Shown here: positions 12,191 through 46,668 of the stretch, piece by piece
Position numbering within the stretch: the stretch's first letter is position 1
Layout of the letters: each line of letters opens with the position of its first letter
From: Sclerodactyla briareus
Lineage: Eukaryota; Echinodermata; Holothuroidea; Dendrochirotida; Sclerodactylidae
Direction: 5' to 3'
Length of the DNA stretch: 64,000 bases
NCBI GenBank assembly: GCA_026419785.1
Contig: JAODTK010005796.1
Location: 183,964 to 247,963 of the forward strand
The notes under the pieces: model-generated
The model's database searches: none
What the model was told of the DNA's origin: nothing
What the model saw: only the letters and a program-made list of their open reading frames with translations
Made by a program: the position numbers and the translations under genes

Positions 12191-14177
12191 ATCAGTGATG
12201 AGGTAATGAAAGTTTTATTTGGTTCATTATTACTTTTAGCATACAATATAGCCAGGCATAATTGGCTACGTTTTGTAGGCTCATTCTCCACAATGAAAAC
12301 ACATACTGAGGAGGCACAGAAAAACTGGTTGCTTTGTTCTTCTGTATTTCGGAGATTCCAATTAATTGAAACAATGTGTTTTTTTTACAAAACGGAAAAA
12401 CGGCAAACATAAAACTTTTTAAACAGAATTTACAGTTTTTACAAAACGGGAAATTATGCCTTACTCTATTCGCACAAGTTGCCGCTGCACGTGTGGACCT
12501 ATCGGACAGATTTTGAAGGTAATTATGCTTAGGCTATAGTCCCATATGCGTGCATGCGGCAAGCAGATATGCCAGCCAGGGAATTTTGAAACTTCGAACT
12601 ATTGTTCATACCTACCTGGAAGTAGTGAATAGGCCCACGAATAGAATGAAATCTTCAATGTTCACGGCACTTCAGATGAACGTGCTTACGTGCACTGTAG
12701 CGATCATCGTCAGCGTACATACGTGGGAATTCCCAGTGGACTTTGCAAAAGTATGAATATACCGATTGGCCAATGGGATCGGGAGCGGGCCCACTGGATT
12801 AAAGGTCGGCTAGATCGAATCAAAACTCACAGACCATTATTAATCCTCGTCATCGTGCTCAGATATGTCTGTTCTTTCCGAGGAAACGTAGGCTATAAAA
12901 ATATTAATATATTAAATTTTATTGAAACTATCTGAGTTTGATGGAAGGTGTTTACTCTGATTTATGATTGGCTAAGCTAATATTCGTAATGACATTCGAT
13001 AGTGGGGACCTGTGGGACTTGCCCAATGTCCACAGTTCCACTATTGATCGTCAATTTACGAGCAATTGCCAAGTTCGAATTGTCAGTAACCTGAGCGAAT
13101 TTGAGGGGTGCGTACAATGATCATGAATTTTTATGACTAACCTCTGATGGATGACTCCACTGTGTGGAACTGTGCGTCCACCTTTGACACGTGGCATCAA
13201 CCCTAGGAGGCTAATGGCACCAAATCCATCTAAGGACACCCTACAATGCTAAAATTTCCAAGGGGACACCCCCATCCCCGGTTATACCCCGTCCCCCAGG
13301 ACTGCGATCATTCATGCTTAGAAATCCAAGGTCTTAATTTGGTGCCCACGAAATTTAGGATATTTTGCAGCGGTGGATCAATGATTTGGTCATGACCTTT
13401 TTCGCAATTATACTATATAGCATGTTTGCGGTGGCACTGTGGGGATAGTTTTTGAATTCATGCTGGATCTTCAGGGGCAGTTTTGTGTTAGCATGTAGTG
13501 GAAAAACTTGTAAATTTTAATTATCTTCCTCATTCTCCTGTACATATTCGTTAACATTTATTATGTTTTCTCTGATAATTTTTTACGAGGTTTCATTGAC
13601 CAATCTGACTAGAATGTGCTTTTTCTCACCAGGAAAATGATTTTAAAATCGGCTGAAATTCCTATTCGTCCTTTCATAAATTGCCTACTTTGCCCCCTGA
13701 CTAGACCACAATGCATTGCGAGAGGCTATTTGCGAAAAGGGCTATTGCCATAATATAATTTTTTGGCTTATAACACAGAAATCACGTGACAGTTAGGTGA
13801 ACCAATGTCATAGCCCATATACTTAAAATATTTCACTCTTTTGTGGTGTAATGCACCAAAATCTGATTGTATGTTCTTGTTATTTCCTACTCCACAGAAA
13901 AATTGCAGAATTCTGATTGAAATCTTATTTTTGTCCAACTTGATCAAGCAATTATTTTAGTTTTGTTTTGGCCCAATATGCATTGATTGCGTTCCATTTT
14001 CCCCTTTCCGGGTCCACATGACGCACAGATATTCCCAGGGACCAGATGGCATGCAGAACCTCGCGTCCCTGGGACGCATGTGTTTTTAGAACATTGACGC
14101 ACCACTATACCACTTTAATATTCGCCACAGCCCTCTTCCCCAAGCACTCAATCATGCCCACCCAATATATCCCACAG
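12191..14177. other. Gene-free stretch upstream of RPSA
   Basis: No exon is recognisable. The non-coding first exon and promoter of RPSA should lie in or upstream of this stretch. A pyrimidine-rich patch near 13998-14013 (TTTTCCCCTTTCC) is a possible 5'-TOP-like site, but I cannot support it further. Confidence 0.4.
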
Positions 14178-14397
14178 TAGGGTTGTGCGGTATACCAGTA
14201 TCATTTAGTCACCAGTTACTCCGCAGCACCGGTACTCCGCCGTACCGACAGTCAATGCACAGTTACTATTAACTGGTATTGGCTACCAACTCACGGTACA
14301 ATGAAATTACCAATCCAGTGCTGTCAGACTTGTATTTTTTGCCGACCCCAGCCGCCGCCTACATAGCAACTTTATCTGCAATCTGTTAAATTGATAT
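14178..14397 (+). mobile_element. hAT-like DNA element, 5' end
   Basis: Begins TAGGGTTGTGCGGTATA and follows the first 220 bases or so of the complete copy at 55278, including TATTGGCTACCAA, TGAAATTACCAA and GCAATCTGTT. It stops matching at the point where the copy at 11235-12190 begins to match. It lies in the presumed first RPSA intron, ending about 70 bases before the acceptor. Confidence 0.75.
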
Positions 14398-14465
14398 TTG
14401 AATTTGTGGCAGTCGAGGAAACCTCGAAAATCACTGAATATTTTTAATTTCATTCTTTTATTCAG

Positions 14466-14637
14466 GTTGGTCCACCATCGTACCTTCACAGATCAACATT
14501 CGCAATGTCCGGAGGTTTAGAGTTCTGTCCTTCGTGAGGAGGATGTTGCTAAGTTCTTGTCAGCATGCACTCACCTAGGTCAAACCAGCGTTGACTACCA
14601 GATGCTTTCAGTATGTCCCTACAAACGAAATCAGACG
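14466..14637 (+). CDS. RPSA: RPSA coding exon 1 (start codon exon)
   Basis: Acceptor TTCTTTTATTCAG ends at 14465; a second AG at 14490-14491 (CTTCACAG) could also serve. The start ATG is at 14505 and reads MSGGLE, the universal RPSA N-terminus. After two missing bases near 14522-14532 it continues EEDVAKFLSACTHLGQTSVD, then YQM and QYVYKRKSDG with further indels. It ends at GACG before GTAAGC (14638). The ATG in its RPSA context decides the start. About five single-base indels occur in 133 coding bases. Confidence 0.93.
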
Positions 14638-17600
14638 GTAAGCCGCCCTTTCAAGCTCATACATATCGATGAATTGCGTAATCTTGAGATTGGTCTTGGG
14701 CCAAATCAGAAAAATGTAATATCGGCTGAAAAACACCCAAAAATGTGCCCGCAATGTAGCGCATGATCGTCTTGAACTGAACATGTACAGAAAGACATAT
14801 TTCATAACCTACAATAGCATCTTAGTGATTTTCCAACAACTCACTCTTCGGACGATTCACGAATAAAAACTAGCAGCATTATCACTGTTGTGTGGTGCTC
14901 TATTGAGCATTGTCAGACAACCCGCCAGCTAGAGACTAATTCAATATTGTGCCCTGTGTCGTGTAATCCATAGCGCACATTGCGTGATCGCAATCCTGGT
15001 CTGATAACTTACGAGAACTGGGAGTGGTTTAGCTGCCGCCAGCTCGTATTTTTGCTCATCATCGTTGTGTCTGCCCAGTGGCTAGCGCTAGGATTGAATC
15101 TGGAAGAAAGTCCTTTTTTTGATTTTTTCCCAAGAGGGATTCTCTTAAATCAAGGATGATTTCCCATCAGCTACATAATTAATTGTTAAAATTCTCCACA
15201 CATTGGAGGCAATTTCCTCCTCAAAATTTTGTGGAGGGATTTTCTGCCGCAGTGTGATAATTACTCCGTAATGAACAATTTGGGAATCTGATTATGCTGT
15301 AAATTAGATGTTGAACCTACTAGCCTGCTTGCAGCTTGCTGTGTTACAGCATTCCACTGATCATTCCTTGGTATAATGAGAATCATCTTGCTACAGTTCC
15401 CCATAAGGCGAAAATTAAAGTTGGTTCAAAGAGAAAATATTGAACAAAATGCCCTCATTGGGTGGCCGCAAATTAGTTTTTGTTGGAAATTCCAAATTAG
15501 CTGCTGGGCTGGGACCCATTGTGGAGTCTGAGTATGTTCTGAAAAAAAGTACTGCCTCAAAATGCCCTATAGATAAACATGGAAGTTGTTCATAAATACC
15601 CAATTTGGCCATATTCCAAAGGGGAAACAACTATCCCACCTCGAATCTTCCTCCTCCAAACCAACGAAATAAAAAAAAACAAAAACAAAAAATTCCCCAA
15701 GATTAAACCAAAATCCCAAACAATCAATCCTCTCCATCCATCCCCTCTCAACAAATCTCAACTCCAATCCCCCCCAAATTTGAGTAAACTTTTTATGAGA
15801 AAAAAAGTGGCTGCCATGTGAAAACCAAAAACCAAACTGGTGGCTGTGAATACAACCCATCATCCCCAACGTGGCATTCATAACTACACTCTGTCATCAT
15901 AACACTCGACAAGTGTTCTTGCCTTTGGCATGAGGCTTGGGTCCTGGGGTACCCTCACATACCGTCACATGTAAATCAATGAGTTGTCTCGTCAACTTTT
16001 AGTGTAGACTGTTATGTAATTTCCTTCCAATAAAGGGACCTGATTGGCAAGTCATGTGACACCACTACATAATCTAACCGAGTAACAGTTTCCAGGAGTC
16101 CCCGATAGTTAGGCCACACCCAACGCAGCACGTCATACAGTTCACCATGTAATCAATGAGTGTGTCCCTCGTCACTTTTAGTGGTAGAACTGTTATGTCA
16201 TATTCCTTCAATAAAGGGACCTGATTGGCTACAAGTCAGTTGACACCACTACATCATCTAACAGAACTAAACGTTCCAGAGTCTCGATATTAGTCCACAC
16301 CCAACGCGACACTAATTTTGGTATCTGTACAGAATTACAACACCTTCTTTGATCACCAGCTGATTACTGATCACATAGACTGTTTGCGTTGAGGAGTCGC
16401 CATGCAAAAGTATCTCTCACAAACAGTCGACTAAAATGCACCCATTGTCTCATTTGGGCAGATTGACAATCAGCTGTTTAATTTTCCAGCTTTCCCAGAT
16501 GGACAATACATGTTTACATCCACTACCTGATGACTAGTTATTGACCTAATGTTTCAGGAGTTCCACATCAATCAACCTGAGGAAGACAATGGGAGAAGCT
16601 GCCTACTTGCTGCCCGATCAACGTTACCCTTGAAAAAAACCCAAAGGGATATCTTGCGTCACTCTCTCGGCTAAGCCCTGATGGGACAAGGTATGTGGCA
16701 TCACTCGAGGCTACGTGGGGGTACTACCCCAAATGGTCCTACACACCACACTGCTTGCATGCTGTGCACTGTTGGTTCCTGTATTGTTAATACTATACAG
16801 TATAGCTAGGTTCACACGGGTTTTGGCAACTGTGCTTTAGAAACCGTGCTCGTGAGAGCAAATACATTTATTGTGCTTGGTGATGACTTTGTCAAGGTGC
16901 AGTGTAGTACCCTCTTTGCAGGGAGGAGCAATTGCTGTTAGGACCATATGCGGTAGTTGGGCAGTAAACTGGCAGTGGCCACCAGGAGGGATAGCTTGGA
17001 AAAATCAGAAGGTTGCAGAACGTGGATAAACATGGAATAAATGAAAAGGGTAGGGTGAGTGGCACCCCCCGAAAAGAGAAAAATCGTGTTGTGGTTGCAG
17101 GTCCGTCACTCAGAAGTTTGACCTAATTCACCCACCCTGACTCTCCCTGCAAAATCTTGTCATGGCCGTTGCTCTGAGACAGCCGATTCAAGTGGTCAGC
17201 TTTTTTAGTGGTTTGTCAATACTTTGTGTTGCCATATATGTCCACTGGATGATCATTCGAGCTGTTATGGCTAAGCGTGTGTCAAGTAGACAACATGCGA
17301 GAAGCCATCGTTTAACAAGAGGAGGGCTATTCATCACTCACCGCACAACACATCGTCTGCGGGCTTGGCCAATTCCTTGCAATCATTGAACATTACTCTT
17401 TGCCCATCTGCCCCCGGTCAATAGTATGTGAATACTTGAATCAATAGTGATCAAATTTATTGTAACTTCATCTACAAAACAGGGATTTCCCAAACCGCGA
17501 TCATTCCTGTGTATAAAATGAAAAAGCGGATCAGGTTTACGAGGCGGGTTAACATCAAATCCCAGTTCAACAGGCCAAATTTATGGCTTGCTATAAACCT

Positions 17601-20600
17601 AGGTTTTTGCTTGCTTGGTATCACTTTATCAAGTCATCGAGCTGGTTACTCCAATCACATTATCAAGTTGTTACATCATAGCTGGTTACTCGCCTCACTG
17701 AAGCATCTAGGAGAGGTGGAAAATCATGGAGAGGCAAATCTATTGGGTTAATAATGATTCCCTCTTTTTGCCTTACTTAGCTGGAATGTGGACCTGACGT
17801 TTTTGGCTTTAGATATGCTATTCAACTGTTATAAACAGCTGATGATCAACAACATTTTGTTTCTTCAGAGGGCTGTGCTGCAGTTCGCCCATCACAACCC
17901 GTTCTCAGCCCCATCGCTGGACGGTTCACCCCTGGTACCTTCACCAACCAGATCATGCGCTTTCCGTGAGCCGCGCCTGCTGGTCGCGACCCGACCCACG
18001 TGGCACCACGCCAAATCCGGGAGCCTCCTATGTTAACCTTCCCGTGTTGCTTTCTGCAACACCGACTCGCCACTGCGGTTCGTGGACGTTGCTATTCCCT
18101 GCAACAACAAGGTGAGTTAGTGTTAGGAGATGTTGGCTTTTTGTTGTGAAGAATAGCGAAGTGGTAACAGTGACGCTTCGCAATCAGCAATCCAGTGTTT
18201 TCTCAAGTGCTTATCTGCAGTTGCGATTGGTGTGGTCCTCATTCTTCACCTCATGTTCTGTTGTGAATGCAGTCACTTCCTGGGGTTACTGTGATTGTTA
18301 TGAATGTTTTTCAACAAGTCTTGTCAGTCGGCTGTGAGCAGGTCACATTGGAAAACTTTTGCTTCCTCCTGGATCAAATGATAGTCCTCCAAGTGGTACG
18401 TAAAACGAGCCCATGATAAGGCTGGGATGGTTCACCCCCTGCTTCGATATTTAACTGAGAACTGGTCGGGAGAAGGAGAGGTTCCCCAGCATACAGTATG
18501 GCCCCCAAGGTTCCTTGTGAGCCTACTCGCTCTCCTGGACCCGGAAATTTGAACCAAATCACATATCTATTGCTGTGTCAGCAAGTTGACTTAACATAGC
18601 CAGCACAGAGGTAGCCTGCTAAAGCTAGGATATGAGGAAGGCTGTTCCTCACATGAGGGGGCTATCCTTCTTCAGTATATACCATGATGGAATATTACCA
18701 CCTATCGTGTCAGGACTGAGTTTGACAATTCCAAAAATTTGGGATTCGGCTCATTACAATTCAGGTGACTTAGATGTCAATCATCAGTACACACGGCGTT
18801 GATGATGAACTCACCCTACATGGGCCCAACATTTTGTTCATGAGTCTTGATAGAAAACTATTTTCTAACCTCTTACAATCTCCGACAACGAGAATTTATT
18901 CAAGAATGATGGATCTGAAAGCCCTAAAAATGAATCGCAGCTGCTGTTTTAGAGGCTCTGCACCAGGTGTTTGCCAAGGCTTGCTTTGTAGTGGGTCAAG
19001 GCCGCCGAGTTTCAGAAACATTGGAGCCCTTCGAATTGGGAATTAAAGAAAAATCATCCTATGTCAAATTAGGTTGGAGGTTGTTAGAACCATTCCTAAT
19101 TTCAGATCAGTGTGAGTGATTTTTCTGCAGGTAATGACTGTTTCCCAAAAGTTAGGGAAAGGTAATATGGGCGATTGTGCAATCAACGATGGAACGAAGC
19201 TCCCACAGGCGTTGCTGGTTTAGGCAAATCACCGAGTGGTTAAAGCATCATCCTGTGCATATGAGTGAAATGAGTCTGATACAATGTGAACAAAGTCAAA
19301 CGCCTGTTTCAACGGCGAGCACAGCGGTAACCAGCCCAGCTCTAGGACCTGGAGGATGATCCCTGGTATCCGATGTGGTAACTTTTCTAGGATTCACAGT
19401 GCATATTTGGTATCCATCAGTCCAGTATCTCAACTTTAATTTTCCAGGCCAATGGCCATGTAAATATGTATCGACTTTTGGTACTTTCTATTCATCACAT
19501 CATGGCAGGCAAGTCCCCAGACTAAATTCTGGTTTATTGCAAAATTCGCGCTGGTAATGTCCACAGGGGGGGAAACTGCTAGGATCCCCTGTATAATAAA
19601 CAAAATCAATGTGACAACTGCTTTTGGAAAGTCTATAAGAACAAACTATAGTCGGATCCAAATAAGAACTCAACACATCTCATTAATTTCCAAGGCGATA
19701 CTTCATTTATTCATTTACTGTAATAGACTCTATGTTCATTTCTTTACTGTAAGAGACTTCTATGAGTCCACCTTGCAAAAATCAATCCCCCCTGTGGAGG
19801 TCATAGATTTCCCTAAAAATTCCAGGCTTGTTTTTGGTTGCTTTTACAACGGAGACGCTCAATGTCCAACTAATGGTTACTCCAGTACTGAATTTAATTT
19901 TCATGATGACTTCCGGTTTGGGACCAAATCATTAAATATTGAAATGGCTAAATTACAACTAGTCTTATCCTAGTACAAAGTCCATTGTAAAACTACTTTG
20001 AAAAGTCCTATAAGAAACTATCGATTGGATCCAAATAAGAACTCGACAAATTCTCTTTAATTTCCCCAATCTATACGTCATTTATCTTTTCTGTCCCAAT
20101 GCCCGAACTTGCTTTACTGTTTAGACTCTATGAAGCCACCTTTTGCGCATCCCCCCTGTGACTCATACCAGTCCCTGAAAATTCCAGCTTGTTTTGGTTT
20201 GGCTCTCCACAAAGGATCACTCCACTCCATTCCAAATAAGTTCATGAGGTAATGAACTTAATTTTGATTCCTTGACGAATTCAATGACACTATGCCTCAT
20301 GACATGTTTGTTGTATGTGCACTGGCTTGTAAATACGATAACTCACCCCACCTGGATTGATTAATCTCATACTTGAGTAGTGTAGCGTTCTTATGGGAGT
20401 ACAGGGACCCTATTGTTTTTGTGTAGCTCGGAGGTGACTTTTGGCCAAGAATAGCCAATCTGAAAAAGTCGATATTTTGGCCAATTTTGGCTTGTAAACG
20501 CACATAACTCGACCCGGCCTGGATTGATGAAGCTCATACTTGGATGTGTGTTCCTCTCAATTAGTAAATGATTGTAATTGGTTTTGGGGTCAGGGTCACA

Positions 20601-23600
20601 GGTATCTGAGGTCACCAGAGGTCAAAGTCTGAAACCGAGAAATTTGTGTGTCGCTGTTGGTTGGAAAAAATGGAAATTATGTAAAACTTGTTGCCCTCAA
20701 TGAGCTGGTACAACTCCCATTTGTCCTGTGTCTGGCTAGAGTTGTCAAAATAGTCAAGAGATCACGAAGCCTTTTGTCTTTCTGGCTTACTAAAAAATGA
20801 CTTCTGGTTTGGACCAAATCACTGTAGGCAAGCCGGCAATAGGAATTCTGGTTCAATTGCAATAAATGCTATACGAAACCTATGCACAAGCCAAACCTGA
20901 CAAATTAACGTTATTAAAATTTCTACTTCTCCACATACAATTTTTCTCAATTATGCCATTACGTTCACGAGTTATTAGTCACCTGTTTGCCCATTATTTT
21001 ATCTACCCTTCAGGGTATACCCTCCATTGGGCTCATGTGGTGGCTGCTTCTCCCGTGGGGTCCCCGCCTCCTAGGGGCCCATCAGCCGGGAGTCCCCTGG
21101 TAGGTGATGCCTGACTTACTTCTAAACCGTGATCCACAGGAGGTAAGTCCGGTCGACTATCGGTCCGGGATCTGGTGGGGTGGAGGCCACTGCCAACGCC
21201 TCCTTAGCTTATGGTTTGCTCACTCGGGGGGGGGTTTACCTTCAGGGAGTGACATTTGGGCATGTGCTCCCATGGCAGTGACACTAAAAGTCCGTCCAGA
21301 ATGCCCAGTCCGAGCAAAGCTGAAATGTGGTAGCCAGCTTTCCGTATGGGGAGTACAACAGGCTTTCAAGCATGTCCTCTTTGCCTACTTGGTCTCCTAA
21401 ATGAATCATGAAGAGACTTCGTGGTCACTTTCTCACAACCCGTGAGGGCCATTAGTCCTTGTCGGTTTCCGTTTAATAAGGAAAAACATTAAATTCGTGT
21501 ATCTCAACCGTTTAACCTGTACACGGATAGCGCCATTCGGATCTGAATGACATCGTCGATTCCCTCCCCGACCGGTACCGCGAATCATGCAGCAAACTGT
21601 GTGGTGTGTTCCGCCACATTATCGACTGTGGGTATTGTTTGTATATGCGGCGAATCTGACGACTATGGGTTCAATAGTATAGGTCCCTGAGAAGTATTAA
21701 CGATCTCCATTTGGTTTCTGCTGTGCGAAACCTACACAGTATGGCCTACTACCATGGAATGATATACTAACGCCTGCATTACAAGCACCAAACGGGTTAC
21801 ACGCTAGGTGATTCTGTATGCTGTTAGTGTAGTAGTGTTTCAACAGTATTTCATGCATGCATGCATGCAGTGCACGTGGATCACAAGATACAGGGTTACG
21901 TACATCGTAAGATTTGAGCGCACAACGCCAACAAATACCAAGTCGGGCCACAGAAGATCCACCAAATCGGAACTTTCGACCGTACACTTAACGGTCAATG
22001 GTAGATTTCTATCGACTGTTGTATATACAACCGATATTTCGCGCTCGCGATCCTCTATAAACATTACAGCGATATGATTTGCATTGGAATAACTCTGGCG
22101 AATTGGGTAATTGGTGCATATAACAATTAAAAATGAAAGTTTTCAATGATTTGTTGCCATTTATGACTGAGTTCCGGTACCGAGCTAGCACCTCAATACA
22201 TTTAGTAAACGTCTCTAAGTGAGATTGCGTCTCTCCCAGTGTTTTGTTACGTACGAGAGACACATTGGACCGTATACATGTAAGCCCTGCCTTGCGTGTG
22301 TGCTTTTTTGCCTTGCATAAATAGGCTATACACTGCATAGTCCGGTTTCCTGGATATTACAGACTCAGTGGAATTCTTTTAGGACTGAACACAGTGTGCA
22401 AACAATTTTTCATTATTGGGTGACACAATGTGGGGGAAGTCCTCAGGAATTTTCCCACTTCCGTTTCACACTTACGGTAAATTGTAAACGTTCAACGGCG
22501 CAATCGTTCGTTTAACGTGTACATGTTAAACGGCGGCAAGCTAAGGCCGATTATGATGTAATTTTGTTCATGCCCGGGGTGGGGTTTGGTGAAAACGATC
22601 TGATTGGATTTTGGGCAGCAAAGTCTTAATTAAGTTGGGTATTAGCCTGTTTTATGTAATTTAATTTTTCAGCTCGTTAGCAAGATTACACAAGAACCAT
22701 ATGTGCTACAGTGATGCATACAATGCCATAGCTGCTATGTCCTGAATAGAACATTTTTTCTTACTACGGCAGCCCACAAATAGCAATTAATCGATACAAA
22801 TGTGGAGGTTTCCAAAGTTTATGATTTTGGACATCCTTGACTGCTGCTTGGGAATAGTTGTTGGTGTGTGGGTGAGGCGCTGGGGAGGGTGTTTGCTGCC
22901 TGCAGGGGAGGGTGGCAATGTCTGGCTGCCTTGAAAAATAAGAGGCAATGAATCATGAGGAAATTTTTGGATTTTGGGTAAATAAGTGATTGGACTGAGC
23001 AATTTCTGTACCATGGAGAGAAGAGTGGGGGGGGGGGTCTTAAGCAGAAAAAGCAATCGCGTGACTTTTCCCTATTACGAGTCAAACTGATTGGTCAGTT
23101 AATTTTTAGGAATTTTTTATTTTGTGAAAATTGGATAGCTCCGGCGCATTTGGTTGGGCATCTTGGTCAACAGACCCAGTCCAGAGTGCTCATGAATTAG
23201 GATTTGTATCTCTGGTGAAGAGTTGACCTCAGGCAACAATGACACCATTCATTTAGGCATGTCCCCCTCGGCAGCAACATAATACAGCTAGCCCTTGAAA
23301 TGTCTGATGTTTTTGAGATGCTTCTTTGATGAACTCTTCTCTATCCATTCCAATACTGTGGGCTAGGATGGCTTAACTATTCAATATATCTTTCAAACCG
23401 CCACGTTCATGTTGAGAAGGATGAGCAGGAGGCTCGTGAGCGAGCTGCCCAGCAGGAAGAGCCCAGCGGCCCCGTACGTGGACCAGTGGGGGGCAGATGT
23501 CCTGGCTGTACCCGGTACCAAACAAACCCCCAGAGGTGGCTGATGTAAGTGTAATAATGAAATGGTGGGGAGGGCATTGAGAAGAAGACTCAGCCGCTTT

Positions 23601-25698
23601 GTATGTAGACAGTTGGGGGGAGGCGGGAGATGTCTTGGCTCTATCAGGTACCGCTAATCAGGTACCAAACACCTCCAGAGGTGGCTGATGTAAATTTAAT
23701 GGACATCAATGGGGGGGGGCATGGGAGAAGAGCCTAGCAGGGGTTGTATGGGGACCAGTGGAGGGGAAGATTTTCCTGGCTGTACTGGGTACCAAGCCCC
23801 CAGAGGGTGGTGATGTAAATATAATAGATATGGGTGTGGGGTAGGGGGGAAGCGCATGAACAGCTGTATCAGGCCTCTTTATAGGGTCCGGTGTTTGGCA
23901 GATGAAAGGGGCTGTTCCAGGTACCTACCAGCCAGAGTGGCTTCTGTAAGTATAATGGTTGGAGGTGGTGTATGGGGGAAGGGCCATGTATGTTGACCAG
24001 TTGGTGGCAGATGTCGGGCTGTACCAGTATCATATCCCTAATGGGTGAATGATGTAATTTTAAGGTGAGGTTGAGGACCCCCAACAGTCACGTGGTGACA
24101 GTGGGCCTGTGAAGAAGTTTGTATTGACCCTTTGATTCCTAGGCCGAGTGTCTAGATCAATTGGGAAGAAGATGGAGAAGTGGGTCACGGGGTCGGGATC
24201 AAGATAAGGGATCATAGTCCAGAGGTTACTTTTCAAAGTAATAGCCCCTGGTTCGTGTAATCTGGCATGGACTAGGGGTTTTTGGTAGGACCAGGGCTCC
24301 ATCCTTTCACGACATCTACATTAAGGAGGACCCGAGGGGCTTCAAACGAGAACAATTGACCCCAGAGGCTATAAAAACTAGCCTCACGATTCATTACCAC
24401 ATACACGGAGTGTCAGGGCGTCAACAAACATTGGAAATAGTGCTTTGCCGTCATTTATTAGTTAGAGGCCTACTAAGGTGAAGACCCCATGGTCTATGCC
24501 CCCTCCCCCCCCCCCCCTCGCTCAATAGCTCCTGGTTTATACGCTTCACTTTTGACCTGGGGTTATTGATGATTTTTAGGGGGATAATAGCCTCTGGGCG
24601 CCCGCTTATAGTGATTGGGTTGTGATTACTCAGCCCTACCACTATAATAAACCATAATTGTACATAGACTGTCTGTAACTACCAGACTAGAGACACCAAA
24701 AAGATTTTGGATTGAGAATGCTACAGACAGTCCCATTTTTGTCAGTTGGAGGCTGTCCTGGAGCATTTCTGCACAAATTTGCTTTCCCTTTTCTTCTCCG
24801 CAGCTGGCAATGGTGCTTCTGCATAAGGTGTTGTTTAGCGTTTTCTTCTAATTGTTCCAACAACTTCGAGGCACCTAACAATCGATGAAATGTCGAACTT
24901 TTCAAGAATGATGAGCTAAAGCTAAATTGCACAGAATTGGCAGTGTGGCTATGGACTTTTGTAACTGCAAACCACAAACATTGGAAATAAGAAATATTTC
25001 ATTTTATTAATTTTTGGCTCAGTTTTCTAATTAGCGTTACAACATATCAGTGAAATGATTTTCTGTAGGTTTGAGGATTAGCCTCAATTCCAGGAAAGAA
25101 GTGTTCAATTGCACAAAGTTAGAGAGTTCGTATTTTGACAGGATCATCACCAATCAAAACATATAGCATTTCATCTGGTGATAGAGTAATTCCCTATATA
25201 TCTATGGACTCTGGCTGACAGGGTCAACTATAGTTCAATGTTATCGTACTGCATTATTGATATTGATCCTTGACAGCCTCTAATCTGCATACTTGGCTCT
25301 CAGAGCAACTAAAGGGGAGGATTGTGTATTACATATTCTCCGCTGATCACTCAATTCAGTCTGGTCCCCAGAATGTATCGCCCCACAGTCTCTTGCTTGT
25401 TGTGGGCTTGCTTGAATTGTTTTATGTTGAAGAGAGACGTTTCCAGTTGGGAGCATCCCATTCACCAATCATTGTTCTCTTGTTTCCTTGCAGTGGGCTG
25501 ATCCTAGCATTGCCACACCCATCCATCGGCCAGGGCGCCGCCGTAGCTGCCGTGCCGGACGTACCCACGGTCCCTACCGTCCCTGCCGTCGCTGCCGCCG
25601 GGGGAATGCAGACCTTCCAGGCCACTGAATGGGCTTCTGAGCCCTCCAATGATTGGTCCTCAGAGCAACTCTGCAGTCACCCAAAAAAATTTTTTTAA
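14466..25698 (+). CDS. RPSA: 40S ribosomal protein SA (uS2) / laminin receptor, whole gene
   Basis: RPSA is the eukaryotic uS2 protein of the small ribosomal subunit, needed for 40S maturation. Its metazoan C-terminal extension is also described at the cell surface as a laminin-binding protein. Six coding exons follow in the correct order: 14505-14637, 16558-16690, 17869-18111, 21014-21142, 23411-23544 and 25494-25698, with GT/AG borders at nearly all junctions. The sum, about 310 codons, matches the family (about 295-320). Every exon reads through only after one to several single-base indel corrections, most in short homopolymers. The ordered introns and consensus splice sites argue for a real gene in error-prone sequence. 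A decayed duplicate is the alternative. Introns of 1.2-2.9 kb hold many repeats. A 5' non-coding exon is expected upstream but not found. Confidence 0.93.
15966..16315 (+). repeat. Two-unit tandem repeat in RPSA intron
   Basis: Two adjacent units of about 175 bases share ATCAATGAG, CTTTTAGTG, ATAAAGGGACCTGATTGG, ACACCACTACAT and CACACCCAACGC. They differ by many single-base indels and few substitutions, consistent with recent duplication plus sequencing error. Confidence 0.85.
16558..16690 (+). CDS. RPSA: RPSA coding exon 2
   Basis: Acceptor GTTTCAG ends at 16557 and donor GTATGT starts at 16691. The frame-corrected reading gives GVHIINLRKTWEKLLLAAR, then TIENPKDICVISAKPYGQ. This is the conserved uS2 core strand-helix segment that follows KSDG in all RPSA proteins. 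At least seven indels fall in 133 bases, for example an extra A in ATCAATC, extra A and G in AAAAAAACCCAAAGGG, and extra bases around CACTCTCTCGG. No frame longer than 30 codons survives uncorrected. Confidence 0.9.
17869..18111 (+). CDS. RPSA: RPSA coding exon 3
   Basis: Acceptor TTTGTTTCTTCAG ends at 17868 (an alternative AG lies two bases on) and donor GTGAGT begins at 18112. Corrected reading: [65 protein letters not shown]. These are the best conserved blocks of RPSA; the [10 protein letters not shown] part lies in the region usually called peptide G / laminin-binding (family knowledge). Indels occur near 17898, 17962, 17994 and 18050. Substitution stops are absent once the indels are corrected, which favours a functional gene. 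Confidence 0.95.
19209..19350 (+). mobile_element. tRNA-like SINE fragment (family E)
   Basis: Contains ACCGAGTGGTTAAAGC, an A-box-like block of a tRNA-Leu/Ser type, then GTCAAACGCCTGTTTCAAC. The same order appears at 31458 and 32314, where the copies are longer. It lies within RPSA intron 3 in the same orientation as the gene. Confidence 0.55.
19605..20275 (+). repeat. Tandem duplication of about 380 bp in RPSA intron
   Basis: Segments 19605-19905 and 19985-20275 share CCAAATAAGAACTC, TTTAATTTCC-like, CCCCCCTGTG and AAAATTCCAG-CTTGTTTT blocks in order. A fragment around CTTCTGGTTTGGACCAAATCA recurs at about 20800. The 138-residue frame at 19557-19973 falls inside the first unit and is interrupted in the second, so it is not taken as coding. 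Confidence 0.75.
20280..20660 (+). repeat. GGTCA-rich repeat family D, copy in RPSA intron
   Basis: Two units (from about 20320 and 20490) each contain GCTTGTAAA, CATAACTC or CGATAACTC, CTGGATTGAT and CTCATACTTG. GGGTCAGGGTCAC and GAGGTCACCAGAGGTCAAAG follow. The inverted counterpart is found at 38880-39900 and 40910-41430. Confidence 0.7.
21014..21142 (+). CDS. RPSA: RPSA coding exon 4
   Basis: Acceptor CTACCCTTCAG ends at 21013 and donor GTAAGT begins at 21143. Reads G-SIGLMWWLL at the start, then needs corrections in the RGVLRLRGPISRE-like part (about 21060-21095). It then gives PW-VMPDLLLNRDPQE. This matches the conserved segment between IPCNNK and the acidic tail in RPSA. The exon is 129 bases, close to three codons off 40. 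MPDL is preserved although the aromatic YFY usual before RDP is LLN here, which may be real or a base-call problem. Confidence 0.93.
21143..23410 (+). other. RPSA intron 4, no further gene seen
   Basis: I see no exon in this intron. It contains a (CATG)n-like patch at about 21853-21869 and a G-run at about 23028-23036. Open frames on both strands are short and lack recognisable domains. Confidence 0.5.
23411..23544 (+). CDS. RPSA: RPSA coding exon 5 (acidic linker)
   Basis: Reads VEKDEQEARERAAQQEE and then, with indel correction, Y-DQWGADVLAVPGTK and PEVAD before a GTAAGT donor at 23545. This fits the charged helix and the PEVADW junction of RPSA, since the next exon opens with W. The start is uncertain: the base before GTTGAG is T, not the G of an AG, so either a base is miscalled or the acceptor is the AG at 23415-23416 and the exon starts at AAGGAT (23417). 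Its 3' portion is the founder of the tandem array that follows. Confidence 0.85.
23455..24066 (+). repeat. Tandem array derived from RPSA exon 5 and its donor
   Basis: About five direct copies (from about 23455, 23582, 23722, 23857 and 23980; 87-140 bases each) repeat the exon's GTACGTGGACCAGTGGGG-, GCAGATGTC-CTGGCTGTACC- and CCAGAGGTGGCTGAT-like blocks, plus the first intron bases. Donor-like hexamers persist: GTAAGT 23545, GTAAAT 23690, GTAAAT 23815, GTAAGT 23946, GTAATT 24054. Copies 2-5 have no obvious acceptor of their own and decay progressively. Copy 2 can still be read as EEDSAALYVDSWG. Confidence 0.85.
25494..25698 (+). CDS. RPSA: RPSA last coding exon (W-rich tail)
   Basis: Acceptor TGTTTCCTTGCAG ends at 25493. 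The exon opens with TGG GCT GAT, giving W-A-D-P directly after PEVAD of the previous exon, the PEVADW signature of the family. One frame change near 25525 leads to IGQGAAVAAVPDVPTVPTV and MQTFQATEWASEPSNDWSSE. The TEW and DW repeats are typical of the RPSA C-terminus. The frame then runs through LCSHPKKFF to TAA at 25696-25698. That last piece is unlike known RPSA ends and follows a run of seven A and seven T, so the true stop may differ. Confidence 0.88.
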
Positions 25699-25872
25699 CC
25701 CAACTACTCAACTGGTGCCGACTGGGTGGTGTCTACCTCCCGGACTGGTCATAGAGGACATGATGGGTACTCCACGGTCTCGACCACATCAGCTCAACAT
25801 AGGATAGGCAATGGTTGATCGAATTGGAATGGACCACCACAGTCTGGACACTAGTGAGCTCTGGACTTGTTG

Positions 25873-26202
25873 AGTGTGCTTGTTTAATGGGGATAGACAG
25901 TCGTGCCGTACGGGCACCATAGAAAGGGGTTTTCACGGGGTTGCATGAATGGTCCACATATAGGGCCCTAACCCTTGTTGATGGGCTGTTAATGGGGCAG
26001 ACCAGTCAATGCTATAATACGAGCAACAATAGGTATGGGGTTACAGAGGGTCCATGGAATGGTCCACATAGAGGGCTTCCAACCCTTGTTTGAGAGTGCG
26101 TTAATGGGGTCTGACGGTTGATATGCATAACAAGCACAATAGGAATGGGTTACAGGGGGGTCCATGGAATTGTCCACATTGAGTGCTCCTAACCCCTCAA
26201 GT
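25873..26202 (+). repeat. Tandem repeat, three units of about 110 bp
   Basis: Units from about 25873, 25981 and 26092 share TTAATGGGG, GGTCCACAT-GAG-GC and TAACCC-TTG blocks. The array starts about 175 bases after the RPSA stop, so it may lie within the 3' UTR or just past the polyadenylation site. I found no clear AATAAA before it. Confidence 0.8.
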
Positions 26203-26366
26203 GGCTTGTAGTGAGCTGGTGGATGTTGATCCCGCAATAGCACACTAATGAAATGGGGTCTGGTAAATATTCACAATCGAACTAGTTTCGCTAATTTGCT
26301 AAAAAAAGTGTCCGTACTGTTGACCAGGAGACGGAAGGGTAGGTTCGTTGATGGACCGTATGTGTC

Positions 26367-37837: not shown

Positions 37838-38735
37838 TGTGGACAGAGGATTCCCACCTACCTGATGTTAGGCGAGGAGAACACTTTGTGGACAGGATTA
37901 CTCCTATGTAATGTAGGCAAGGGTGCAGACATGGAACCAGGCTGGAGAACACGTTGTGGACAGGATACTCCTATGTAATGTCAGGCAGGGGCAGACCATG
38001 AGAACCACTCACTTGTGGCCGAGGATTACACAACTACATCAGGAAGAGCACTTTGTGGACAGAGGCTGGGACCTTAGATATGTAGGCAAGGGTGCAGAAC
38101 CACTCACTTATGACAGAAGATTAACAAATGTAAATGTCAGCGAAGAGTGCAGACCCATGGAGACCACTCACGTTGTGGACAGAGGATTACAACCTATTGT
38201 AATGTCAGGCAAGAGCACTTGTGGACAGAGGATTAGACCTGAATAATGATCAAGGCAAGGGTGCAGTACCCTCACTTTATGGACAAGGGATTTCACCAAA
38301 TGTAATGTCAGGCAGTGAGCGCACAGACCATGAGACCAATCACTTGTGGAAACAGAGGATTATGGATTACACCTAGTAATGTCAGGCAAGTGTGCAGCCA
38401 CTCACTTATGGAACAGAGGATTTTACAGGTAATGTCAGGCAAGAATGCATTACACCTCACTTTATGGGACAACAGGATTTCACAAAGTAATGTCAGGCAG
38501 AGTTGCAGACCACTACTTTATGGACAGAGATTCTACAAATGGTAATGTCAGGCAAGAGTGCAGACCATCACTTCGTGGACAGAGGATACAACTAGTAAGT
38601 CAAGCAAGAGTGCAGACACTCACTTTGTGGGACAAGGGGATTACACAACTATGTTAATGTCAAGCAAGAGTGCCAGACCACTCACTTTGTGGCAGAAGGA
38701 GTGTACCAATGTAATGTCAGGCAAGAATGCAGATC
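37838..38735 (+). repeat. Minisatellite, about 56 bp x 16, with higher-order structure
   Basis: Consensus monomer: CTTTGTGGACAGAGGATTAC, then a few bases, then AATGTCAGGCAAGAGTGCAG and ACCACTCA. Monomers start near 37840, 37884, 37951, 38011, 38051, 38107, 38172, 38218, 38274, 38342, 38404, 38459, 38515, 38571, 38622 and 38684. The first nine fall into triplets of 171, 161 and 170 bases: a short 40-46 base monomer, a middle one, and a long one ending in an ATGGAGACCACTCA-like extension. Flanks are unrelated. Confidence 0.93.
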
Positions 38736-38879
38736 ATGCTGATGACGTTTGACTTGTCCCAGGAGGAAACCATAAGGGCAAACCATATTGATCAGAGCGC
38801 ATGCAAAAAGTGTTCCAAATCTGTTTGGTTCCAGAATAGGGTACTGATCCCAAAACTCTCGCCAACAGTTGTTCCATAA

Positions 38880-45926: not shown

Positions 45927-46668
45927 TGCAGGGGTTCCCCTAGTGGTACATTGCCCTGTCCCCATTTGAATGTGCAGGGCTTTTGATAGTGGTACGCACT
46001 GTCCCCAAATTTCTGCAGGGTTTTTGTTAGTGAAACATTGCACTGTCCCAGTTGTATGGAGGTTGTTGTTTAATGCAGGGGTCTCAATAGTGGTACAGTG
46101 CACAATTTATAGGCAGGGCTTTTGATAGTGGTACATTGCACTGTCCCAGTTGTATACAGGGGTTCCTGCTAGTGGTACATTGCACTGTCCCAGTTGAATG
46201 CAGGGCTTTTGATAGTGGTACATTGCACTGTCCCAGTTGAATGCAGGGTTCTTGCTAGTGGTACATTGCACTGTCTCAGTTGTAAGTAGAGTTCCCACTA
46301 GTGAAACATTGCACTGTCCCAGTTGAATGCAGGGCTTTTGATAGTGGTACATTGCACTGTCCCAGTTCTAAGCAGGGTGTTCCTGCTAGTGCATGGTACA
46401 TTGTACTGTCCCAGGTAAATGCAGGGTTCTTGCTAGTGGTACATTGCACTGTCCCAGTTGAATGCAGGGCTTTTGATAGTGGTACATTGCACTGTCCCAG
46501 TTGAATGCAGGGCTTTTGATAGTGGTACATTGCACTGTCCCAGTTGCATACAGGAGTTCCTGCCAGTGGCACATTGCACTGTCCCAGTTGTATACAGTGA
46601 TGTTCAAAGCAGAGGTTCCCACCAAGTGGTACATTGCATGTCCCAGTGATATGCAGGGTGGGGACAGT
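45927..46668 (+). repeat. 43-bp minisatellite, about 16 copies
   Basis: The monomer reads TGCAGGGCTTTTGATAGTGG then TACATTGCACTGTCCCAGTTG plus two bases. Two subtypes alternate irregularly: CTTTTGATAGTGG and TTCCTGCTAGTGG. Units near 46198, 46327, 46462 and 46505 are almost identical, while the left end (45927-46110) is more diverged. The frames of 60-112 residues crossing it exist because the monomer lacks stops in the minus frames. Confidence 0.95.

Follow-up and report, generated by a model that had tools for sequence, protein, structure and literature searches.

The RPSA gene (ribosomal protein uS2) of Sclerodactyla briareus, identified by homology with its exons in order, carries at the border of exon 6 and intron 6 a tandem array of five head-to-tail copies (c1–c5; Table 1), in which the 3′ part of a coding exon is repeated together with its splice donor. 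We consider it likely, judging from the genomic letters, that this array is an intronic minisatellite which was born from the exon end and spans the donor, and that it is removed with intron 6 and probably inert. The sequence analysed here, referred to as the window, comprises the final 64 kb of its contig in a genome assembly of 319 Mb.

Identification of the RPSA gene

Using human RPSA as the query, tblastn placed exons 2, 4 and 5 in order on the + strand (E values in Table 1), with only weak matches for exons 6 and 7 (E 0.12 and 0.35, respectively). Exon 2 additionally matched chains of 40S ribosomal protein SA in the PDB (best E 9.4e-5), while exon 7 had a match to Pfam 40S_SA_C that lay below the cut-off (E 0.0031, 19.2 of 25 bits). 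These matches bear out the initial annotation, made from the letters of the same DNA, in which the source exon of the array was assigned to RPSA. Pfam returned no match for the five other RPSA pieces searched, and the two NCBIfam matches obtained with four pieces were both at chance level and both to one piece.

The exon borders were read by eye. Exon 6 is preceded by the letters CAT where an acceptor CAG would be expected, and exon 3, which was recovered by frameshift-aware alignment, had 7 frameshifts in 36 codons under the laxer penalty and 3 in 23 under the stricter one. Donor 1 comes right after the PEVAD codons and exon 7 opens with TGG, that is, W; in human RPSA, PEVAD precedes W as well. 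At the DNA level, exon 4 and the array were each found at a single place in the genome. Pfam searches of the genome itself (Ribosomal_S2 and 40S_SA_C) found nothing, missing even the RPSA gene in the window, and are thus uninformative on further RPSA copies.

Table 1 Coordinates of the RPSA exons and of the array copies in the window
Feature	Position	Strand	Remarks
RPSA exon 2	14466..14637	+	Start codon at ~14505; followed by GTAAGC; tblastn (E 1e-5), frameshift-aware alignment, PDB
RPSA exon 3	16558..16690	+	Error-laden; followed by GTATGT; frameshift-aware alignment only
RPSA exon 4	17869..18111	+	Followed by GTGAGT; tblastn E 6e-14
RPSA exon 5	21014..21142	+	Followed by GTAAGT; stop inside as written; tblastn E 3e-8
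RPSA exon 6 (acidic linker)	23411..23544	+	By eye and frameshift-aware alignment
RPSA exon 7 with stop codon	25494..25698	+	Preceded by TTGCAG; ORF end; Pfam 40S_SA_C below cut-off
c1	23456..23579	+	3′ part of exon 6, donor 1 GTAAGT at 23545, first intron bases
c2	23580..23725	+	Donor-like GTAAAT at 23690; extra stretch of ~13 bases
c3	23726..23847	+	Donor-like GTAAAT at 23815
c4	~23848..23974	+	Donor-like GTAAGT at 23946; exon core most diverged (42/66)
c5	~23975..~24076	+	Donor-like GTAATT at 24054; final copy

Extent and composition of the array

The array spans ~23456–24076 and has a unit of ~125–130 bp, made up of ~90 bases from the 3′ part of exon 6, the donor and ~34 intron bases, with the exon's own donor (GTAAGT, 23545) falling inside the first unit. 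Relative to the splice sites, it lies between donor 1 and the acceptor of exon 7 (25493). Local alignment scores exceeded the largest of 300 dinucleotide shuffles for all ten pairs of copies (z 5.6 to 23.3), in agreement with the annotated number of about five copies, head to tail, at this place. Pair identities were 63 to 77% with gaps counted, the extra stretch of c2 being included among the gaps in the pairs that involve it, and eight of the ten pairs fell at 63–73%. The donor-like GTAA starts had also been located correctly, all five of them; the start of the repeat had not, as it was put at 23411, and the unit begins within exon 6, at ~23456. A possible sixth copy at 24081–24194 was rejected, since none of the five pairs with it beat the shuffles.

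Read in one frame, the majority of the copies gives YVDQWGADVLAVPGTKPPEVAD before the donor (by eye, with ambiguous columns read as in c1), which is in line with an exon origin of the unit. Matches to GTGGCTGATGTAA with at most 3 mismatches numbered 23 across the window against 19.7 expected, so that the count as such is uninformative; the array holds 7 of these matches, 2 of which are exact.

We also considered a tandem snoRNA in the intron, a candidate that was discarded when no Rfam family reached its gathering score within the window. With the threshold relaxed to E up to 5 over 13500–26300, one chance-level match appeared (E 4.4, minus strand, 22960–23039), outside the array. No tRNA was found in the window.

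Assembly error and the reality of the copies

Histones H3 and H4 hardly vary among animals. In seven alignments of these proteins, 59 to 81% of the codons were as expected, and simulated errors of 10, 12 and 15% left 78, 74 and 64% of codons as expected, which indicates that an error of roughly 10–12% per base is typical of the assembly. At about one error in 10 bases, donor hexamers and reading frames in the window are untrustworthy letter by letter, and the donor letters, stops and unit lengths of the array are therefore unreliable. Actin was broken up in a similar manner, its matches adjoining one another in three frames on one contig. The histone H3/H4 genes, at three loci on two small contigs, serve as a yardstick of this error and had ~5–12% of their codons frameshifted under the stricter penalty.

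This error level bears directly on the idea that the RPSA gene in the window is a defunct duplicate, with the array arising from pseudogene decay. At the laxer penalty, exons 2 to 6 are shifted and exon 5 contains a stop, and aligned positions hold 1 or 2 stop codons in RPSA versus 0 in the histones. Against this, the frameshifted codons amount to 24/278 in RPSA and 69/779 in histones H3/H4 under one penalty, and to 12/263 and 53/773 under the stricter one, and exon 4 has no second genomic place at the DNA level. Because frameshifts are as frequent in the histones of this genome, the broken frames of RPSA do not mark it as a pseudogene, and we dropped this reading as highly improbable; the similar frameshift density suggests that RPSA itself is probably intact.

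The same error level raises the question of whether one exon end could have been stacked into several copies during assembly. The assembly is error-laden, and no second, allelic contig that would inform on copy number was found over the locus among the 40 of 688 candidates scored, where elsewhere only a dispersed repeat (see below) matched. Moreover, the histone loci, which are perhaps near-identical in truth, showed just 69–75% DNA identity to each other over 2.4–3.1 kb including spacers. The array copies are no less alike than this, so that much of their divergence might stem from error alone. In simulations, however, two readings of an identical unit at 10–12% error agreed at ~82–84% (5–95% limits 76–89, with 5% limits of 76–78), above the 63–73% of eight of the ten copy pairs, and divergence of the exon cores is graded, at least coarsely, from copy to copy. 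The copies thus probably differ in truth and not through error alone, although part of their difference, and any single hexamer, may be assembly error. Overall, an origin of the array as an artefact appears quite improbable.

The probable working exon end

Each copy was compared with the majority of the other copies over the exon core (23474–23544), with gaps and columns without a majority set aside and the poorly aligned edge (23456–23473) omitted. Agreement was 62/67, 53/67, 53/67, 42/66 and 47/66 for c1 to c5. The core of c1 is better kept than those of c2–c5 pooled (195/266; Fisher p 0.00028), and c2 and c3 together differ from c4 and c5 (p 0.022), p-values that are rough in view of the columns set aside, the omitted edge and the copies not being independent of one another. 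Over the intron part, c1 held no such advantage (15/30 versus 66/109 for c2–c5, p 0.31). This combination fits one coding copy accompanied by drifting intronic copies, with the proviso that errors being locally fewer in c1 would give the same picture. The description of the copies as less exon-like with distance survives only as a coarse trend in these counts.

The notion that the exon part is better kept than the intron part across the copies was not retained, as no such difference was present when the unit was taken in full (p 0.24 counting gaps and 0.43 ignoring them), a result that speaks against the inert reading. An earlier cut that left out the exon's 5′ edge had given 0.79 for the exon part versus 0.65–0.70 for the intron part.

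We propose that tandem duplication and expansion of a stretch across the border of exon 6 and intron 6 gave rise to the five copies, with c1 presumably still serving as the working exon end. Splicing would then run mainly from donor 1 (23545) to 25494, and copies 2–5, lying in intron 6, would be spliced out with the intron and drift in the manner of a minisatellite. Use of the distal donors would be occasional at most and would yield aberrant transcripts with stops instead of an extended linker. The preservation of the c1 core, the poorer preservation of c2–c5 and the frequency of such arrays in this genome (see below) favour an inert array, and we infer that it is probably without function.

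Donor strength, stops and reading frame

Both readings offered initially, namely an inert intronic minisatellite born from an exon and a set of alternative donors that lengthen the negatively charged linker by unit steps, could be weighed against the properties of the repeated donors. With the letters taken at face value, pairing with U1 is good for donors 1 and 4 (−7.3 kcal/mol each) and poor for donors 2, 3 and 5 (−1.6, −1.6 and −1.4 kcal/mol). The parity of donor 4 (23946) with donor 1 counts against the inert reading. Continuing in frame past donors 1–4, a stop is met at codon 12, 16, 10 and 17, that is, in all four segments; the chance of a stop is 0.635 per segment in random sequence of the same composition, and the chance of stops within 17 codons in all four is 0.028–0.046 for a coding stretch carrying 10–15% error.

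If the distal donors were used productively, they would add unit steps to the acidic linker, or the whole array might even be a coding repeat that ends at donor 5. Consistent with such use, the exon part has an open frame in the majority of the copies taken as one sequence, the junction is open as well if a run of G is off by one base (by eye), and one of two measures points to good preservation at the donor: the surrounding stretch is the densest run of invariant columns (9/11; column permutation p 0.0016, for a stretch chosen after the fact), whereas by mean agreement the best-kept stretch does not lie at the donor (p 0.11). We do not take these invariant columns as selection. The stops weakly disfavour a longer linker, every distal donor requiring readthrough of the first of them, and three of the four donor spacings (145, 125 and 131, the fourth being 108) are not multiples of 3. 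In addition, three of the five donors are weak with U1, and c4 and c5 have the most diverged exon cores. Thus, lengthening of the linker is disfavoured and, in our estimate, very unlikely, even with a residual chance of all four stops under coding, and the inert intronic minisatellite is the better supported of the two readings, given the kept c1 core and the commonness of arrays.

The stops could instead be the point of the arrangement, with the distal donors giving rise to unproductive RPSA mRNA in regulated amounts and dosage being controlled via nonsense-mediated decay. The stops after donors 1–4 and the equal U1 pairing of donors 1 and 4 would suit this scenario, and unproductive splicing is known in ribosomal protein genes, with alternative 5′ splice sites reported for RPS9 (PMC3315480). 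Set against it, the exon cores of c2–c5 drift and, apart from the mixed donor test, there is no hint of selection, which makes the scenario very unlikely in our view. It is very unlikely, too, that the repeated donors form a splice-site array diverting a tunable share of RPSA to stop-containing mRNA, with copy number setting the dose. The array would matter more if transcripts did use the extra donors.

Known parallels

The array resembles a variable number tandem repeat in intron 18 of human ABCA7, which starts at the donor of exon 18 (PMC5954066); both are tandem arrays that extend from an exon end and include the exon's splice donor. As described there, the ABCA7 unit is 25 bp long and starts at the GT, it is present in at least 12 units, its length varies among people and is tied to exon 19 skipping, and the donor one unit downstream is usable, so that 25 bp are retained and the frame is shifted. 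The RPSA unit, in contrast, is ~125–130 bp long, takes in ~90 coding exon bases and is present in 5 copies, as seen in one assembly.

A second parallel is intron gain by tandem duplication in the potato RdRp gene, in which an internal tandem duplication crosses an intron-exon border (PMC4974935). There, as in RPSA, the duplicated stretch carries splice signals. In potato, the outcome is a new intron whose acceptor signals derive from the former border, whereas in RPSA the copied border is that of the donor and the copies lie inside a pre-existing intron. As to ribosomal protein genes, the RPS9 account (PMC3315480) describes stops introduced through alternative 5′ splice sites in lamprey and Drosophila; the likeness to RPSA consists in 5′ splice sites, candidate ones in RPSA, that lead to stops. 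The unproductive splicing described there concerns RPS9 and not RPSA, and the RPSA array is known from genomic sequence alone. Among the papers listed in literature searches for RPSA with a tandem repeat and splice donor there was no RPSA case, and those on laminin receptor gene structure were unrelated by title; this does not prove that no such case has been published.

Array frequency and neighbouring repeats

Tandem Repeats Finder reported 11 arrays with units of at least 30 bp in the 64-kb window, the RPSA array included. Under the same settings, 40 kb from five other contigs contained 5 arrays, and two of the five stretches had none; these comparison stretches were taken from contigs already in use and are not random draws. 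With arrays this frequent, one that crosses an exon border is no great surprise, and the RPSA array is probably an ordinary, harmless repeat. It would provide a further example of a minisatellite taking in an exon border, apparently without harm to an essential gene.

Intron 6 also harbours, separately from the array, a copy of a dispersed repeat of ~420 bp (24195–24614), whose best matches, among the 40 of 688 candidates scored, lay on 39 other contigs at 71–80% identity and which is probably a transposable element. A second tandem array, of ~110 bp × 3, lies at 25866–26195, ~170 bases past the RPSA stop, in the 3′ UTR or just beyond it. Larger minisatellite-like arrays occur in the window at 46068–46597 and 38049–38736, with 43/178-bp and 55-bp units, respectively.
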